Source: Acidobacteriota bacterium
Lineage (GTDB): Bacteria > Acidobacteriota > Thermoanaerobaculia > Multivoradales > Multivoraceae
DNA length: 64,000 nucleotides
Assembly (NCBI GenBank): GCA_003388555.1
Contig: QQVD01000048.1
Coordinates: 186,001 to 250,000, forward strand
Direction: 5' to 3'
In this document: in pieces, positions 52,774 to 60,141 of the stretch
Layout of the letters: every line of letters starts with the position of its first letter
Numbering within the stretch: position 1 is the stretch's first letter
Position numbers and translations under genes: made by a program
Notes under the pieces: model-generated
The model's database searches: none
What the model saw: the letters and a program-made list of their open reading frames with translations, nothing else
Told to the model about the DNA's origin: nothing

Positions 52774-53319
52774 TCAACCCACGACTGGCGCGGCGTCCTT
52801 CCCCGCTTCTTCGTCGATCAGCCGCGCCAGGATCTGCTCGACCGAGGTTTCGGCGAGGGCAGCCACCTCGTCGTCGGTGCGGTCCTGGATCGGGTGGGCG
52901 ACGAGCACGGAGCGGTCGGGAGAGCCGAGAGAACGGGCCTGCGCCAGCGCCGCCTCGCGGAACTCCGAGGAGGCGACGAAGACGGCCGGAAGCCCCAGCT
53001 CCTCGAGCTCCGTCGTGTCGTGCACACTGCACGACGTGCACGACCCTCAATCGGCGAGCGCCTCGACGACTGCATGGCAGCGTTCGGCGATCTCGCGCCG
53101 CAGGTCCGGCGGGGCGTTGCGGGTGAAGGTCGGTTTGCGGAAGCGCTCGACCCGTGCGCCCCGCTGTTCGAGTAGCGCCTGCAGGCGGTCGAGGAAGACG
53201 TCGCCGCGTGGCTTGGAGATGTCGAGCAGGCCGACGGTGGTGCCCTCGAGCCCGGCGATCCGCCGAGCTCGCGGCCGCGCGGCGGGCCTGAGCTCGTGGG
53301 TGGGGTCGAGAAGCTGCAT
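52774..53319 (-). CDS. UGSC-family selenoprotein with in-frame TGA (selenocysteine 91)
   Basis: A 181-residue protein read through TGA at 53049-53047. The two halves stand in one frame: upstream MQLLDPTHELRPAARPRARR to CHAVVEALAD, then U91-GSCTSCSVHDTTELEELG, then LPAVFVASSEFREAALAQA to the end. This is the hallmark UGSC-motif arrangement (Sec/Cys-GSC-T-x-x-S-x-HD) that I know from an NCBI UGSC (seleno)protein family. A hairpin directly follows the TGA. No Cys codon occupies the position. The cytoplasmic fold is small alpha/beta; redox chemistry is likely, substrate unknown. It lies 54 bases after the thioredoxin-like fusion gene. Confidence 0.88.
53017..53049 (-). promoter_or_regulatory. Candidate bacterial SECIS hairpin with UGA codon
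   Basis: After the TGA on the minus strand, GTCGTGCA (53035-53028) pairs perfectly with TGCACGAC (53024-53017) around a 3-base GTG loop whose first base is 20 positions after the TGA, in the range expected for bacterial SECIS. A second copy, GTCGTGCAC (53044-53036), can compete for the same 3' arm with a 10-base loop. Confidence 0.7.
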
Positions 53320-53373: not shown

Positions 53374-54882
53374 TCAGCCGAGCTCTTCGACGGCGCGCGT
53401 CACCGGGATACTACCGGTCGAGCCGCCGACCCAACCACCGAGCACAGCCGAGAAGAGGCCGGCGCCGCCGCCGGCACGGGCGAGCAGGAGTGCGTCGGGA
53501 CGTAGCTTGGGCAGCTTCTCCGGAGCAGGATCGGGAAGGCGATCCTTCGCCACGCCCTCGGCGCAGCCGCCGGCGCCGCGCTCGATCTCCGCCAGCGGCA
53601 GCTGCAAGCGCTCTAGCAGCTCGCCGCGCAGCCGGGCCCGGCTCCAGCCCGCCTGGTCGATCACCCGGCAGTGCTCGGGTGACAGCACCAGCAGCGCGTC
53701 GAAGCCGAGCACCAGCTTCGGATGCGCCACGGAGCGCAGTCCAGCGGCGAGCGACCAGGCGAGCGATTCGGGGGTGCGCGAGAGCTGATCGACGATGCCG
53801 CGTGGGCCCTCGCCGGCGAAGAGGGTGACTGCGGAGCGGCCGGCCTCGACGCCACGCTCCGCCGCCAACGAGCCCCAGGCCGCCGGATCGTCGCGCCAGT
53901 CCTCGTTCTCGGTGAAGCAGAGCGACAGCTTGCCCGGGTTGCCCAGGGTGGCGCGGTCGATGCCGCCCGGGACGACGCCGCCGACGTTGCGCAGCGTCAG
54001 TTGCAGCGCCCTGCCGATGGTCGAGTTGGCGCGGTTGCCCTGGCCGAGGGCATTGACTCCCGAGTTCATGCCGATCCGGCTTGCCACCGGACCGTTGACC
54101 ACCACCACGGGGCCCGAGAAGTAGGTGGTCGCGGCCAGCCCGTGCCAGTTGAACGGTTCGCTGCAAGCCGCCTCGATCGCGGTGAGCACGATCGGCAGGT
54201 ACTCGGGCAGGCAGCCGGCCATCACCGCGTTGATCGCCGCCTTCTCGACCGTACACACGCCGTAGTCGGGCGCCACGCGGGCGAGCACCTCGGCCGGGTC
54301 GCGCCGCGTGCCGCCGAGCATGCGCTGCACGCGCTCCGCGGTCGGGGGGACCACCGGAAGCCCGTCACTCCAGCCGCGCCGGAAGCAGGCCTCGATCGGG
54401 TCCTCCTCGTCGCCGATCTCGACGCTACGGGCCAGGGGCCCGCCGCGGTCGAGAAGAGCCAGCCGCTCGGCGTGGGGCGACTGCAGGTTCAGCGCGCCGC
54501 ATCCGGGCCGCTGCTCCGGCAGCCCTTCCCCGAGGTCCTCGATGCCGGTGAGTCGGCGCCACTCGGCGCGGTTCCACCCCACCGCGCGCCCGACGCTGTC
54601 GCCGCCACGCCGCACCAGCAGGGTCGGCACGGTGTCGACCTCCAGACGATGGGAGAGCAGCAGCTCGTGGTCGAGAGCGGTGGGGATCCCGAGCTCGTCG
54701 AGGAACCCGATCGGGTGATCCTGCGCCACCACCTGGAGCGGCTCCGGAGCCCGCTGCAGCCGCTGCAGCGCGCCGGCGACCAGCGAGCAGGTCGGGCAGT
54801 CGCTCTTGACCACCACCACCCAGCCGTCTGCGAGTGGTTGCGCGTCGCCGGGCTGTGCCGTGGCCGGTGCAGAGGGGCTCAT
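53374..54882 (-). CDS. Thioredoxin-like CPTC domain fused to a large unrecognised domain, UGSC partner
   Basis: A 502-residue protein. Residues ~20-105 resemble a thioredoxin fold: CxxC in SDCPTCSLVAG (Cys29, Cys32) and a cis-Pro at TVPTLLVRR (Pro86). Residues ~150-502 form a domain I do not recognise, with conserved-looking YGVCTVEKAAINAVMAGCLP, FSGPVVVVNGPVASRIGMNS and GVNALGQGNRANSTIG, and a Gly-rich C-terminal GGWVGGSTGSIPVT. No signal peptide. Start MSPSAPATAQ was preferred over ATG 54942. Position immediately upstream of the selenoprotein suggests a redox pair; the biochemical role is inferred only. Confidence 0.7.
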   Translation of the reverse strand: MSPSAPATAQPGDAQPLADGWVVVVKSDCPTCSLVAGALQRLQRAPEPLQVVAQDHPIGFLDELGIPTALDHELLLSHRLEVDTVPTLLVRRGGDSVGRAVGWNRAEWRRLTGIEDLGEGLPEQRPGCGALNLQSPHAERLALLDRGGPLARSVEIGDEEDPIEACFRRGWSDGLPVVPPTAERVQRMLGGTRRDPAEVLARVAPDYGVCTVEKAAINAVMAGCLPEYLPIVLTAIEAACSEPFNWHGLAATTYFSGPVVVVNGPVASRIGMNSGVNALGQGNRANSTIGRALQLTLRNVGGVVPGGIDRATLGNPGKLSLCFTENEDWRDDPAAWGSLAAERGVEAGRSAVTLFAGEGPRGIVDQLSRTPESLAWSLAAGLRSVAHPKLVLGFDALLVLSPEHCRVIDQAGWSRARLRGELLERLQLPLAEIERGAGGCAEGVAKDRLPDPAPEKLPKLRPDALLLARAGGGAGLFSAVLGGWVGGSTGSIPVTRAVEELG

Positions 54883-54976
54883 CGCGGAGCAGGATACAGC
54901 GCTCCACCCGTCGCTGCCGCCCTGGCCGCGCCGGATCTTCATCGAGTACGGCGCCCGCCCACGGCCCGGCTGCCGC

Positions 54977-55808: not shown

Positions 55809-56050
55809 AGCCACCCGCCGCAGGGTCGCAGCGAGCCCTCGGTTCCTTGACAGTCTGGCGGGTCTCCCATAGAACTGACGGCTCCCGCGCCAGTTCACTC
55901 CCTCGCGACCAGAGTCCGGCCGAACCCCTCTCGGCCGCCGTCTTCCAGGACCTCCAGGCTCCCACCCCCGCAGCGCCACGCGGCCCCCGACACCGGAAGA
56001 GATCGAGTAGGGATCGCAGCCGCCGCCGACGCGCCGCCAACCTGCCACGG

Positions 56051-57304
56051 ATGACCATGATGAAGATCAAGCGCTCCCTCCAGACCGTCGCCACTGTGGC
56101 CCTCGCCGGCCTCGCGCTCGCTTGCCCGAGCTCCGACGAGGCGAAGAAGATCGGCGTCGTGCTGCCCCTCTCCGGCGAGGACGTGACCTACGGCGAGTCG
56201 ATCCGCGAAGGCCTCGAGCTCGGGCTCGACGAGGTCAACGCGCGCTCGGAGGTGCCGGTGCAGTTCACCATCGACGTGCAGGACTCCAAGTCCTCGCCCG
56301 AGGGGGCCGCCGAGGCCTACCGGGTGGCCGCGAGCGAAGCGATCGCGGTGATCGGCGGAGCGACCTCGCCGGAGGCGCTCGCCCTCGCGCCGCTCGCCGA
56401 TTCCGACCAGAAGGTGCTGCTCTCGCCGACCGCTTCGAGCCCCGAGCTGAGTCGCGTCTCGCAGTGGTTCTACCGCATCTTCCCGAGCTCCGAGGCCGAG
56501 GCGGTGGCCATGTCCCGCTTCCTCAACGACAAGACCTGGCTGCAGCCTGAGGTCGCGGTCGCGTTGATCGCCGACGAGCCTTACGGCCGCGGTGCGGCGG
56601 ACAGTCTCGGCGAGGTGCTGGATGGCGGCTTCGACGCAGAGGTGACCTTCCCCGCGGGCACCGCCGACCTCACCGCGCAGATCGACGAGGTGCTGGCCGC
56701 CTTCCCTCAGCGCGACGACCCGGAGAAGGCGCGGGTGGTCTTCGTCGCCGCCCGAGGTGGCGACCTGTTTCGGGCCATCAGCGGCCTGCGCACCGCCGGA
56801 TTCAACGCCAACCACCACTGGGTCTTCGCCACCTCGGCGCTGGCCAGCCCCTTCGTGATGAGCAACCTCGGGGTCGACGCCAACCGCGTCTTCTTCGCCC
56901 AGGGAGCCTTCGACGTCGAGTCGGAAGAGGAGCCGATGAAGAGCTTCGTCGCGGCCTACGAGCTGCGCTACGGACGCAAGCCGGACCTCTACGCCGCCCA
57001 CGGCTACGACGCCATCCACGTCCTCGGTCAGGCGAGCATCGAGGCCCCCAACGTCCAGTTCCCCTCCGACATCCTCACCGGCATGCGCTCGATCAGCAAC
57101 TACCAGGGCGCCACCGGAAACATCCAGTTCCGCGAGAGCGGCGACGTGCAGAAGTTCGCCCGCATGTTCTATGTCGACGACGGCGAGATCGTCGACTACC
57201 AGGAGTGGGAAGAGGAGCGCCAGAAGGAGCGCGCCGATCGGATGCGGGAGCTGCAGCGTCGCCAGGAGGAGCTGAACCGGCGACTCAACGCAGTCGAGAA
57301 CTGA
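56051..57304 (+). CDS. ABC transporter substrate-binding lipoprotein, Leu/Ile/Val type
   Basis: A 417-residue periplasmic binding protein with a lipobox (LAGLALACP) and type I fold: KKIGVVLPLSGEDVTYGESI, VIGGATSPEALALAPLAD, FYRIFPSSEAEAVAM and GYDAIHVLGQASIEAPNV. ATG 56051 is used; ATGs at 56057 and 56060 are equally possible. The frame extends far upstream as shadow sequence. The last ~35 residues are an Arg/Glu-rich coiled coil, unusual for this family. No permease or ATPase genes are adjacent, so its transporter is elsewhere or it acts as a sensor. Confidence 0.88.
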   Translation: MTMMKIKRSLQTVATVALAGLALACPSSDEAKKIGVVLPLSGEDVTYGESIREGLELGLDEVNARSEVPVQFTIDVQDSKSSPEGAAEAYRVAASEAIAVIGGATSPEALALAPLADSDQKVLLSPTASSPELSRVSQWFYRIFPSSEAEAVAMSRFLNDKTWLQPEVAVALIADEPYGRGAADSLGEVLDGGFDAEVTFPAGTADLTAQIDEVLAAFPQRDDPEKARVVFVAARGGDLFRAISGLRTAGFNANHHWVFATSALASPFVMSNLGVDANRVFFAQGAFDVESEEEPMKSFVAAYELRYGRKPDLYAAHGYDAIHVLGQASIEAPNVQFPSDILTGMRSISNYQGATGNIQFRESGDVQKFARMFYVDDGEIVDYQEWEEERQKERADRMRELQRRQEELNRRLNAVEN

Positions 57305-57468
57305 CGGCTCGGACGGCTGGGTCGTGGCGCTGGGGCAGAGGGCCGACGGCTCCCGGCGCTGCTGGAATCGAGTGCGCCTCGGCGTCGTACCGGATCGCCA
57401 CGGTCGCGGATCGCGTGGCCGTCGGCTCGTCGGGCGGGTCGAACGGTGAGTGACTGGAGGAGCATCCC

Positions 57469-58854
57469 GTGGCGGGAATCGAACGATACGGCAGCTACGT
57501 CCCCTTCTTCCGCCTGACCCGCGCCGCCCTCGGTGGCGGCAAGGGCGAACGCGCCGTCGCCAGCTACGACGAGGACAGCGCCTCGATGGCGGTGGAGGCG
57601 GCCCGCGAGGCGCTGCGGGGCTCAGAGGGTGGCGTCGACACCCTGCTCTTCTCCACCACCAGCCCGCCGTACGCCGAGAAGCTCAACGCCGCCACGGTCG
57701 CCGCGGCGCTGCAGCTCGAGGAAGGCGTCTGCGCGCTCGATCTCGGCGGCTCGTCGCGTACGGGCCTCTCGTCGCTGCTCGCCGCTCTCGATCTGGCCAG
57801 CTCGGGCCGCCGGGTGCTGGCCACGACCGCCGACGTGGTGGTGGGGGCACCGAGCGGTCCGCGCGAGGCCGCCGGCGGCGACGCCGCGGCGGCGTTCGTC
57901 GTCGGCTCCGACGACGGCATCGCGCGGCTGATCGGTCGTGGCGCGACCACCCGTGAGGTGCTCGACGTCTGGCGCACGGAGCAGATGCCCTTCGCCCGTC
58001 AGTGGGAGGATCGTTTCGGTGCCGAGGTCTTCGAGCCGCTGGTGCAGGCCACCGTCGACGAGGCTCTCGAGGACGCGGGCTGCGAGATGAAGGACCTGGC
58101 GCGGGTGGTCGCCGACGGAACCAACCCGAGGGTGCTCAAGTCGTTCGCCAAGAAGGCACGCCTGAGCCCGGAGCAGATCGGCGCCGACCCGTCGATGCGC
58201 ATCGGCCGCGCCGGCGCCGCCGCAGCCGGCCTGGGCCTCGCCGCCGCGCTCGACGAGGCGAAGCCAGGCGACAAGATCCTCGTCTTCTGCGCCGCCGACG
58301 GGGTCGACGCGGCGGTCTTCGAGGTCACCTCGAGCGTCGATCAGGGCCGACCGCGCCACTCGGTCGGCTCCTGGATCGACTCGAAGCGCAGCGACCTCGC
58401 CTACACGTCCTATCTCAAGTGGCGCGAGATCCTGCCGTTCGAGCCACCGCGGCGTCCCGATCCCGATCGCCCCGCGGCGCCGCCGATGCAGCGGGCCGAA
58501 CGCTGGAAGTTCGCCTTCGTCGGGTCGCGCTGCGGCAACTGCGACTCGGTCAACCTGCCGCCGCAGCGGGTCTGCGTGGTCTGCCAGGCGGTCGACCAGA
58601 TGACTGCCGAGCCGTCGGCGGACGCCGAATGCCGCGTCGCCACCTACACCATCGACCGGCTGGCCTACTCGCTGCAGCCGCCGATCGTCGCCGCGGTGGT
58701 AGACTTCACCAACGGCGGGCGTTTCAACTGTCAGCTCACCGACGTCGACCCCGACAGCGTCGGCATCGGCGACGAGTTGGAGATGACCTTCCGGCGCTTC
58801 TTCACCGCTGGCGGCGTGCACAACTACTTCTGGAAGGCGCGTCCCAAGCGCTGA
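57469..58854 (+). CDS. HMG-CoA-synthase-like protein fused to a DUF35 (OB/Zn-ribbon) domain
   Basis: A 461-residue fusion. Residues 1-~320 have the thiolase-fold layout of HMG-CoA synthase-like proteins (GIERYGSYVPFFRL at the N-terminus, GGDAAAAFVVGSDDG, DGVDAAVFEVTS). At the nucleophile position, CALDLGGSSRTGLSSL, the cysteine is replaced by Ser95/Ser96, so it may not be catalytic. Residues ~340-461 are a DUF35 domain with a zinc ribbon (CGNCDSVNLPPQRVCVVC) and OB fold. GTG start with GGAGGAG. It is followed by a thiolase gene after 111 bases, echoing archaeal thiolase-DUF35-HMGCS complexes. Confidence 0.8.
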   Translation: MAGIERYGSYVPFFRLTRAALGGGKGERAVASYDEDSASMAVEAAREALRGSEGGVDTLLFSTTSPPYAEKLNAATVAAALQLEEGVCALDLGGSSRTGLSSLLAALDLASSGRRVLATTADVVVGAPSGPREAAGGDAAAAFVVGSDDGIARLIGRGATTREVLDVWRTEQMPFARQWEDRFGAEVFEPLVQATVDEALEDAGCEMKDLARVVADGTNPRVLKSFAKKARLSPEQIGADPSMRIGRAGAAAAGLGLAAALDEAKPGDKILVFCAADGVDAAVFEVTSSVDQGRPRHSVGSWIDSKRSDLAYTSYLKWREILPFEPPRRPDPDRPAAPPMQRAERWKFAFVGSRCGNCDSVNLPPQRVCVVCQAVDQMTAEPSADAECRVATYTIDRLAYSLQPPIVAAVVDFTNGGRFNCQLTDVDPDSVGIGDELEMTFRRFFTAGGVHNYFWKARPKR

Positions 58855-58965
58855 CCGCCGTTGGGCCTCAGGTCGCGCCTGAGCGCGCGGCTCGCCGCCG
58901 CATCATCGGACTCGCACCACCCCTACCGAGCGGTCGGCAGGTGAACCGGGAAAGAGGAGAGCACC

Positions 58966-60141
58966 ATGGCCAGCAAGGGCATCTGTGATCGCGTCGCCAT
59001 CGTCGGAATGGGGTGCACACGATTCGGCGAGCACTGGGACCGCAGCGCCGCCGACCTGCTGGTGGACGCGGCGCAGGAGGCCTACGCCTCCGCCGGAGTC
59101 GAGGCCGACCAGGTCGACGCCTACTGGCTGGGGACCATGGGCAGCGGCATCTCGGGACTCACCGCCGCAGAGCCGCTGAAGATCCAGTACAAGCCGGTGA
59201 CCCGGCTCGAGAACATGTGCGCCACCGGCAGCGAGGCGATCCGCAACGCCGCCTACGCGGTGGCCAGCGGTGCCTACGACCTGGTGGTGGCGATGGGCGT
59301 CGAGAAGCTCAAGGACTCGGGCTACAGCGGGCTGGTCGGCAACGCCCCGCCGGGCGACGGCACCGAGTCGGGAATGACCGCGCCGGCGAACTTCTCGCTG
59401 CTGGCGCCGGCCTACGCCGAGAAGTACGGCGTCGAGCTGGAGACCCTGCGCGACGTGCTCTCGAAGATCGCCTACAAGAACCACTACAACGGCGCCCGCA
59501 ACCAGAAGGCACAGTTCCAGCGCGAGGTGCCGCTCGACGTGATCAACGCCTCGCCGAAGGTCGCCGGCATGCTCGGCATCATGGACTGCTCGGGGGTCAG
59601 CGACGGAGCCGCCGCGGCGGTGATCTGCCGCGCCGAGGACGCACACAAGTACAACGCCAAGCCGATCTTCATCAAGGCGCTGTCGTTCGTCGCCGGGCCT
59701 GCCGAGGGCGCCAAGCGTCAGGACTACGACTTCACCACCTTCCCCGAGGTCGTCGCCAGCGCCAAGGACGCGTACGAGCAGGCCGGCATCGAGGATCCGC
59801 GCGAGCAGATCAGCATGGCCGAGGTGCACGACTGCTTCACCCCGACCGAGCTGGTGCTGATGGAGGACCTCGGGTTCTCGCCGCGCGGCAAGGCCTGGCA
59901 GGACACCCTCGACGGGCGCTTCGATCTCAAGGGGGCGCAGCCGGTCAATCCCGACGGCGGGCTGAAGAGCTTCGGCCACCCGATCGGCGCCAGCGGACTG
60001 CGCATGATGTACGAGATGTGGCTGCAGTTGCGCGGTGAGGCGGGCGAGCGTCAGATCGACTCCCCCAAGCTCGGCCTCACCCACAACCTCGGCGGCGGTC
60101 CGGGACGCGCGGTCAGCTTCGTCTCCGTCGTCGGTCTCTGA
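58966..60141 (+). CDS. Thiolase-family acyl-CoA acetyltransferase
   Basis: A 391-residue thiolase of the SCP2/acetyl-CoA acetyltransferase-like type. The nucleophile Cys85 lies in ENMCATGSEA, the His in SFGHPIGASGLRMM (His338), and the C-terminal NLGGGPGRAVSFV replaces the usual second Cys-Gly motif, as in SCP-x type enzymes. AGGAG precedes the ATG. The pairing with the HMGS-like/DUF35 protein suggests acyl-CoA condensation or thiolytic cleavage (fatty-acid or sterol side chain); substrate unknown. Confidence 0.9.
   Translation: MASKGICDRVAIVGMGCTRFGEHWDRSAADLLVDAAQEAYASAGVEADQVDAYWLGTMGSGISGLTAAEPLKIQYKPVTRLENMCATGSEAIRNAAYAVASGAYDLVVAMGVEKLKDSGYSGLVGNAPPGDGTESGMTAPANFSLLAPAYAEKYGVELETLRDVLSKIAYKNHYNGARNQKAQFQREVPLDVINASPKVAGMLGIMDCSGVSDGAAAAVICRAEDAHKYNAKPIFIKALSFVAGPAEGAKRQDYDFTTFPEVVASAKDAYEQAGIEDPREQISMAEVHDCFTPTELVLMEDLGFSPRGKAWQDTLDGRFDLKGAQPVNPDGGLKSFGHPIGASGLRMMYEMWLQLRGEAGERQIDSPKLGLTHNLGGGPGRAVSFVSVVGL

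Follow-up and report, generated by a model that had tools for sequence, protein, structure and literature searches.

We analysed a stretch of 64,000 nucleotides from an Acidobacteriota bacterium (assembly GCA_003388555.1, contig QQVD01000048.1, positions 186,001 to 250,000), hereafter the window, which carries on its minus strand a gene of the UGSC selenoprotein family and, just upstream of it, the gene of a second protein, here called the partner. The source genome amounts to 6.8 Mb in 74 contigs. The features of the locus, in window positions, are as follows.

52774..53319, minus strand: gene of the UGSC selenoprotein family; it encodes 181 residues, starts with ATG at 53319 and stops with TGA at 52776-52774
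53047..53049, minus strand: in-frame TGA, predicted selenocysteine (Sec) at residue 91; TGA in 80/80 relatives from named genomes
53017..53035, minus strand: hairpin of the selenocysteine insertion sequence (SECIS) type, 8-bp stem and loop GUG, from conservation, covariation and energies
53374..54942, minus strand: partner gene, called at 522 residues, on the same strand as the UGSC gene and 54 nt ahead of the latter's start codon
54538..54849, minus strand: the partner's thioredoxin domain with its CPTC motif, spanning roughly residues 32-135, from a PDB profile match and VIA-align
53389..54438, minus strand: the partner's core domain, spanning about 350 residues (roughly 169-518), no named family

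The UGSC gene appears as a 90-residue open reading frame (ORF; 53047..53319, minus strand, start ATG) and an 83-residue ORF (52774..53025, minus strand, start GTG), which share one frame, are separated by the single TGA at 53049-53047 and join into a protein of 181 residues. A sequence-only reading had described this arrangement, leaving out the strand, and the ORF list and the joined translation bear it out. At the TGA the protein reads ADUGSCTSCSVHD, with U/C-G-S-C at the predicted active site. The joined protein matches PF24696 over residues 3-167 (profile positions 2-170 of 172) with an E-value of 8.2e-44 and 150.2 bits (gathering score 25), and NF041046 over residues 26-167 with 150.7 bits (cut-off 125), so that the earlier family assignment now stands above both curated cut-offs. 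The gene is almost certainly a selenoprotein of the UGSC family, which had been described by 2008; it is another member and not a novel type. With the known family (NF041046/PF24696; the "UGSC-containing protein" of PMC2398784) it shares the U-G-S-C motif, the TGA and the SECIS-type hairpin, and the gene itself differs from it in nothing. To have called the gene hidden is fair insofar as gene callers split TGA-bearing UGSC genes, for example into two hypothetical proteins on the Paracoccus ferrooxidans plasmid pFER4, whereas the family itself is well known. For the Global Ocean Sampling selenoproteome, the UGSC passages of PMC2398784 give 255 forms with Sec and 21 with Cys, and according to those of PMC9402790 UGSC makes up 8.2% of selenoprotein genes. 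That the function is not established, as the earlier reading held, agrees with the UGSC passages of a 2026 review, which rank the family among selenoproteins whose functions "remain largely uncharacterized" (PMC13188914).

Decoding of the in-frame TGA

The source genome encodes SelA above its cut-off, together with SelB (315 bits against a cut-off of 242), SelD (228 bits against 125) and tRNA-Sec (70.1 bits against a gathering score of 47). Since searches for SelB, SelD and tRNA-Sec at E ≤ 0.001 also gave matches in all 14 control genomes, the cut-offs decide for these three. The sequence-only reading had proposed to look for this machinery in the same genome and to align homologues at position 91; the machinery is present, and homologues carry TGA or Cys at this site, apart from copies that have lost the motif. 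TGA stands there in all 80 relatives from named genomes, and because these are the closest ones (the named-genome scan yielded at least 556 relatives, of which the top 80 were kept), they give no estimate of the frequency of the Cys form. In 297 genomes of the phylum, a single TGA occurs in each of the best 36 UGSC matches (E ≤ 1.8e-34), and weaker matches include copies without it; the source genome itself holds a second UGSC gene, likewise with one TGA. SelA was found in 31 of the 31 phylum genomes with a full UGSC gene compared with 192 of 297 overall (Fisher 1e-6, kinship ignored), where two genomes with weak partial matches (G134 and G151, one below the cut-off) were counted as being without full UGSC. 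The 18 UGSC domains of plasmid loci (L164-L182) comprise three with TGA (Acidovorax and two Paracoccus), 13 with TGC or TGT, that is Cys at the Sec site, in hosts such as haloarchaea, Arthrobacter and Roseovarius, and two that have lost the motif (Sporomusa and Vibrio). Outside support for Sec decoding at this site comes from the Geodermatophilaceae, where UGSC-motif selenoproteins are described together with a tRNA-Sec of anticodon CUA (PMC5330540).

There is strong comparative evidence for the hairpin. Measured from the TGA, its stem begins at a distance of 11 nt and its loop at 19 nt. The 8-bp stem and GUG loop can form at +14 to +32 in 81 sequences (69 distinct, 12 duplicates), with standard pairs at five of the eight stem positions in 69/69 distinct sequences and at the remaining three in 68, 67 and 57. 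Pair +17/+29, in which both bases are third codon positions, is G-C in 50, A-T in 11, G-T in 8 and A-C in none, a covariation with a Fisher value of 4e-8 (kinship ignored). The relative synonymous entropy over the 81 sequences is 0 to 0.26 for codons +4 to +10 compared with 0.54 to 1.0 for the other conserved codons listed, the exception being His +9 (0.83), which covaries with Ser +5. Ser +7 is AGT in 80/80, a codon used for only 4 of 178 serines in six window genes, while Val +8 is GTG in 73/73 and Asp +10 is GAC in 81/81. The mean fold energy of the 81 sequences is the lowest of 67 offsets at the TGA (-15.6), with +94 reaching -14.9. The rules for bacterial SECIS elements given in PMC13188914 (loop of 3-9 nt with a G within its first two positions, upper stem of 4-16 bp, 16-37 nt from UGA to loop, minimum free energy ≤ -7.5) describe the kept hairpin, which has the GUG loop, 8 bp, a distance of 19 nt and -17.6 kcal/mol for the 45-nt fold holding its stem. 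No difference from such an element was seen, and binding by SelB is predicted.

In the single sequence, the folding energy is not striking. Three stretches gave z-scores of -2.78, -1.40 and -0.49; among 2000 synonymous recodings, 70 proved as stable as the natural sequence over 36 nt and 428 over 45 nt. The minimum-energy fold is the kept hairpin for 54 and 45 nt, an overlapping hairpin for 36, 66 and 91 nt and a third hairpin in another fold; the kept stem or its upper 6 bp occurs in the minimum of 12 of the 15 folds listed. Weak z-scores and this dependence on the stretch led us to reject single-sequence energy as main evidence. The support that the sequence-only reading drew from the hairpin thus holds for conservation, covariation and the published rules, and not for energy in one sequence. 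For the second UGSC gene of the source genome no hairpin was found by energy (1625 of 2000 recodings as stable), and an Rfam scan of the window gave 0 matches at gathering scores.

The weak and shifting single-sequence fold and the 74-contig assembly could also fit an ordinary stop, that is, a pseudogene, a sequencing error or a short 90-residue product. Against this stand the TGA shared by all 80 named relatives, the synonymous constraint and covariation in the hairpin, the full Sec machinery of the genome and the Cys found at the same site in organisms such as haloarchaea, which make an ordinary stop scarcely credible. It is virtually certain, judged from sequence, that the UGA at 53049-53047 is decoded as Sec through SelA, SelB, SelD, tRNA-Sec and the hairpin just downstream, with Sec predicted in the protein.

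The upstream partner protein

A relative of the partner was found in 79 of the 80 named UGSC loci; in the 80th, UGSC starts 33 bases from the contig end. It lies on the opposite strand, head to head, in nine of the 79 (L071, L081, L090, L092, L093, L101, L112, L113, L126), and about 3.9 kb from UGSC in L072. The match extends to the CPTC region in 74 of the 79 loci; it is cut by the locus end in L064 and L116 and aligns only from about residue 166 in L075, L106 and L109. Among the 297 phylum genomes, the core is present in exactly the 31 (13 genera) that hold a full UGSC gene (kinship ignored).

The N-terminal part of the partner is a thioredoxin fold with a CxxC motif. Its best PDB profile match is thioredoxin (E 2.7e-4), VIA-align gave Z-scores of 9.5 to 10.3, and Cys49 and Cys52 are invariant in 35 aligned sequences (alignment A3, for which 34 of 71 suitable loci were used). 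The true start possibly lies near residue 21. For the core, no Pfam, NCBIfam, PDB sequence or credible fold match was obtained, the Foldseek and VIA-align searches having mostly probed the thioredoxin part and hardly the core. Fumarate hydratase rows from these searches were rejected as weak (TM-score about 0.2). Only P200, G284, N306, R311 and E345 are invariant across 54 core sequences.

UGSC and the core are also found fused. Nine genomes of f37/g52 (g52 being a genus of the Acidobacteriota) have from 10 to at least 11 UGSC matches each, and most of the copies examined consist of UGSC followed by the core in one open frame, without the thioredoxin part; in one copy, in L147, DUF6282 lies between them. 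Plasmids of Sporomusa, Vibrio europaeus and Variovorax boronicumulans likewise encode the two in one frame. Of 24 plasmid partner matches 19 were opened (H2, H15, H19, H22 and H24 were left out), and UGSC was present in 18 of these loci, with the core alone in Haladaptatus. Linkage, fusion and co-occurrence support UGSC and its partner as a functional pair whose members are predicted to bind each other. One trait added here to the known family is this constant partner encoded just upstream. The "Unknown_1" domain to which UGSC is fused according to PMC2398784 may be the core. On four haloarchaeal plasmids (L171, L174, L180, L182) the order is core-UGSC-core, suggesting a complex of two core paralogues.

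Predicted fold and comparison with PrdB and GrdB

The AlphaFold2 model of UGSC, computed with Cys for Sec, has a predicted local distance difference test score of 88 and a predicted template-modelling score of 0.83. In this model a strand-helix unit occurs five times, and the Sec site stands where helix 92-107 begins, behind strand 83-89; the fold is thus predicted to be doubly wound alpha/beta. Such a model is unlike the "Trx-like fold" printed for UGSC (PMC2398784, PMC13188914). The best 50 Foldseek and the best 50 VIA-align rows contain lumazine synthase, PurE, receiver and TIR domains; thioredoxin, GrdB and PrdB entries are absent from these rows, which excludes nothing. The top VIA-align row (8s7v_H) combined Z 12.0 with a root-mean-square deviation of 15.0 and was not used, and a PDB profile search with UGSC gave at best an unrelated match (E 0.32).

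These results bear on whether UGSC could be a general thiol-disulfide redox protein or peroxidase of thioredoxin-like fold, with the partner as its reductant and target. The UxxC motif, the thioredoxin-like fold supposed in the UGSC literature cited above and the peroxidase activity of GrdB, known here from a title in a reference list, would fit such a role. The predicted five strand-helix repeats do not, nor is a thioredoxin found among the fold rows just mentioned, inconclusive as that absence is; furthermore, an ever-present core of 350 residues suggests a more specific task. We regard this role as unlikely.

A different relationship is indicated by profile comparisons. At E ≤ 1, the 20 members of UGSC alignment A1 matched the NCBIfam models GrdF (14 members), GrdB (13), GrdH (7), "various selenoprotein B" (6) and PrdB (4), with a best E-value of 3.6e-5. 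When 85 non-redundant UGSC sequences (156 domains minus 71 that were over 75% identical) were compared by hhalign with 13 PrdB-like proteins of the phylum, the probability was 85.6 (E 5.5e-6, 59 columns) with Sec aligned on Sec, and it remained at 79.8 after masking of the motif. In the controls, eight column shuffles and one reversal reached at most 0.6 and the partner alignment 0.2, and none of 62 other ORF clusters, which include false frames, exceeded 4.0. A 63rd cluster, which scored 99.9 and matched the first 90 UGSC columns, was taken as the UGSC N-terminal half and hence as a positive control. These comparisons are suggestive, not proof, of a distant homology between UGSC and the Sec region of PrdB/GrdB.

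With PrdB and GrdB/GrdF/GrdH (pfam07355, TIGR04483, TIGR01917), UGSC has in common the order UxxC, helix, "GIP" strand, the likeness extending beyond the motif. In contrast to these proteins, UGSC is shorter, its partner core is not recognisably PrdA or GrdE, and its hosts are not confined to amino-acid-fermenting clostridia but include haloarchaea. Some UGSC host genera are usually regarded as aerobic. Glycine reductase is fed by thioredoxin and thioredoxin reductase (PMC3091704), and thioredoxin-type genes are likewise linked to UGSC. A link of UGSC to Grd/Prd, or to the partner as a separate gene, was found neither in the open-licence literature searched nor in the UGSC passages of PMC2398784, PMC13188914, PMC9312934, PMC7539508, PMC5330540, PMC9402790, PMC5029168 and PMC7435645. 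The source genome also encodes, at G000:C9:103605-104252 (L142), a PrdB-like protein with one in-frame TGA, likely another selenoprotein that gene callers would split.

Electron supply and proposed function

The plasmid partners are mostly the core alone, with thioredoxin genes nearby. The order is trxB-trxA-core-UGSC in Arthrobacter and core-UGSC-trxB in Roseovarius, and in Variovorax SRS16 trxB lies two genes upstream of core-UGSC. The acidobacterium L147 shows trxB-UGSC-DUF6282-core. A TrxB-like ORF (E ≤ 2.7e-20) was found in 10 of the 19 plasmid stretches, compared with none of the 80 named loci (stretches of up to 10 kb on each side, often shorter); four of the ten are annotated as trxB, the others as flavin adenine dinucleotide (FAD)-dependent oxidoreductase or not at all. 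Plasmid neighbours include coenzyme A transferases, solute-binding proteins of tripartite tricarboxylate (TTT) or tripartite ATP-independent periplasmic (TRAP) transporters, lyases and amidohydrolases, and the surroundings are of catabolic type both on the plasmids and in L147. DUF6282 recurs in four haloarchaeal regions (one without UGSC) and in L147, and phosphosulfolactate synthase in two plasmid regions.

Taken as one joint reading that includes Sec decoding and the functional pair, UGSC and its partner would form a thioredoxin-fed, Grd/Prd-like reductase of a small carboxylate, to which we give a probability of about 0.58. UGSC would be one half of a two-protein enzyme and the upstream thioredoxin-core protein the other. 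The selenolate, placed at the helix start after the fourth strand, would attack an activated carbon in a small carboxylate that UGSC and the core hold jointly, with Arg311, Asn306 and Glu345 as candidate binding residues. After departure of the leaving group, Cys94 or Cys97 would resolve the selenium adduct to a selenenyl-sulfide, which the CPTC thioredoxin domain of the partner, or elsewhere a separate TrxA with TrxB, would reduce. The same logic, selenolate attack, has been proposed for PrdB in proline reductase (PMC3091704); here the unnamed partner would replace the pyruvoyl subunit.

Several observations weigh against this reductase. All GrdB/PrdB model matches are far below the cut-offs, the protein of the window itself reaching 11.1 bits with TIGR04483 (cut-off 300) and 12 bits with TIGR01917 (602.2), and the Pfam GrdB model is absent among the families matched by the 20 UGSC members at E ≤ 1. 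Smaller alignments scored lower against the PrdB-like proteins (narrow A4 21.4, A1 74.6), and the homologous stretch covers about 60 columns, in which strand-helix-strand may recur by chance. No pyruvoyl-type family (GrdE/PrdA) occurs among the partner matches (35 sequences, E ≤ 1). TrxB-like genes are missing from nine of the 19 plasmid stretches, and several of the ten found lie kilobases off or on the opposite strand, or bear no annotation other than FAD-dependent oxidoreductase. The neighbours vary between loci and name no substrate, and those in the window (a glycosyltransferase, a histidine-phosphatase-type protein, a periplasmic binding protein and thiolase-type enzymes) have no evident link to the UGSC pair. 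Finally, nine of 25 UGSC domains in L147-L160 are without UxxC; these lie in L147, L149 and L150, most with the core in the same stretch. Since paralogues with the core but without Sec and Cys exist, part of the family works otherwise.

These UxxC-less domains would rather suit a pair that is mainly of lyase or transferase type. In such a pair a single branch would use the Sec/Cys motif, as nucleophile or ligand, and the sole role of thioredoxin would be to keep this motif reduced. In Sporomusa termitida (L169) and Vibrio europaeus (L172), fused UGSC-core proteins that have neither Sec nor Cys lie beside aconitase X and DUF126 and point in the same direction. However, the TrxB/TrxA linkage and the fused thioredoxin with invariant CxxC in 35 partners, as well as Sec in 80/80 close relatives, argue for redox turnover, and we consider a lyase or transferase somewhat more doubtful still than the general redox protein. 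A twin-arginine motif precedes six of the nine UxxC-less domains and none of the 16 others in L147-L160, and several Sec copies of f37/g52 carry ordinary signal peptides as judged by eye; therefore, the enzyme may be periplasmic in f37/g52 (L147, L149, L150 and others).

On plasmid pFER4 (L168), a TGA-type UGSC gene and the core lie within about 10 kb of selA, selB, trxB, TusA, DsrE and cysteine desulfurase, possibly a mobile Sec cassette. This neighbourhood would also fit a selenium-storage or regulatory protein instead of an enzyme, but pFER4 stands alone in this respect among 16 plasmid regions with annotated genes (three more have no gene table), and such a role appears very improbable. 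A second plasmid, p2-T1 of Acidovorax sp. T1 (L164), an IncP plasmid typed as conjugative, carries a TGA-type UGSC gene and the core, with transposase genes of IS1071 and ISPps1 less than 10 kb away; SelA was not found on this plasmid. Among viral contigs, 43 pattern matches included no relative.

In the window itself, 56039-60138 on the other strand encodes a periplasmic binding protein, a protein resembling acyl carrier protein synthase III with an oligonucleotide/oligosaccharide-binding (OB) fold of ChsH2 type, and a thiolase (Pfam); ORFs resembling these genes form clusters of 10 to 13 loci, named by eye. Among the 45 largest neighbour clusters, those beyond the partner, its overlapping frames and UGSC comprise at most 29 loci, and the 29-locus cluster is a MutY-like ORF, named by eye from one example.

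In aquatic samples UGSC proteins rank with the most abundant selenoproteins; the family was in print by 2008, and its function is still open in the UGSC passages of the reviews consulted. What is new here is the partner rule, the thioredoxin linkage, the suggested PrdB/GrdB homology and a predicted model that is not thioredoxin-like, and the interest of the case lies in the partner rule and in a testable Grd/Prd-like mechanism. More tentatively, UGSC, core and thioredoxin may constitute a third selenoprotein-B reductase branch beside glycine and proline reductase, which would operate outside clostridial fermentation in Acidobacteriota, Acidimicrobiia, Myxococcota and haloarchaea. Small carboxylic acids would lose an alpha substituent (amino, hydroxyl, sulfur or halogen) by reduction, the core taking the place of the pyruvoyl subunit. 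Such a range is chemically plausible because GrdB-type proteins have been implicated in fluoroacetate reduction (PMC10838667). Now that UGSC has a constant partner, a probable route for its electrons and a related class of enzymes, reconstitution from three or four proteins comes within reach, and the Cys forms in Arthrobacter, Roseovarius and haloarchaea would make first tests possible without selenium.
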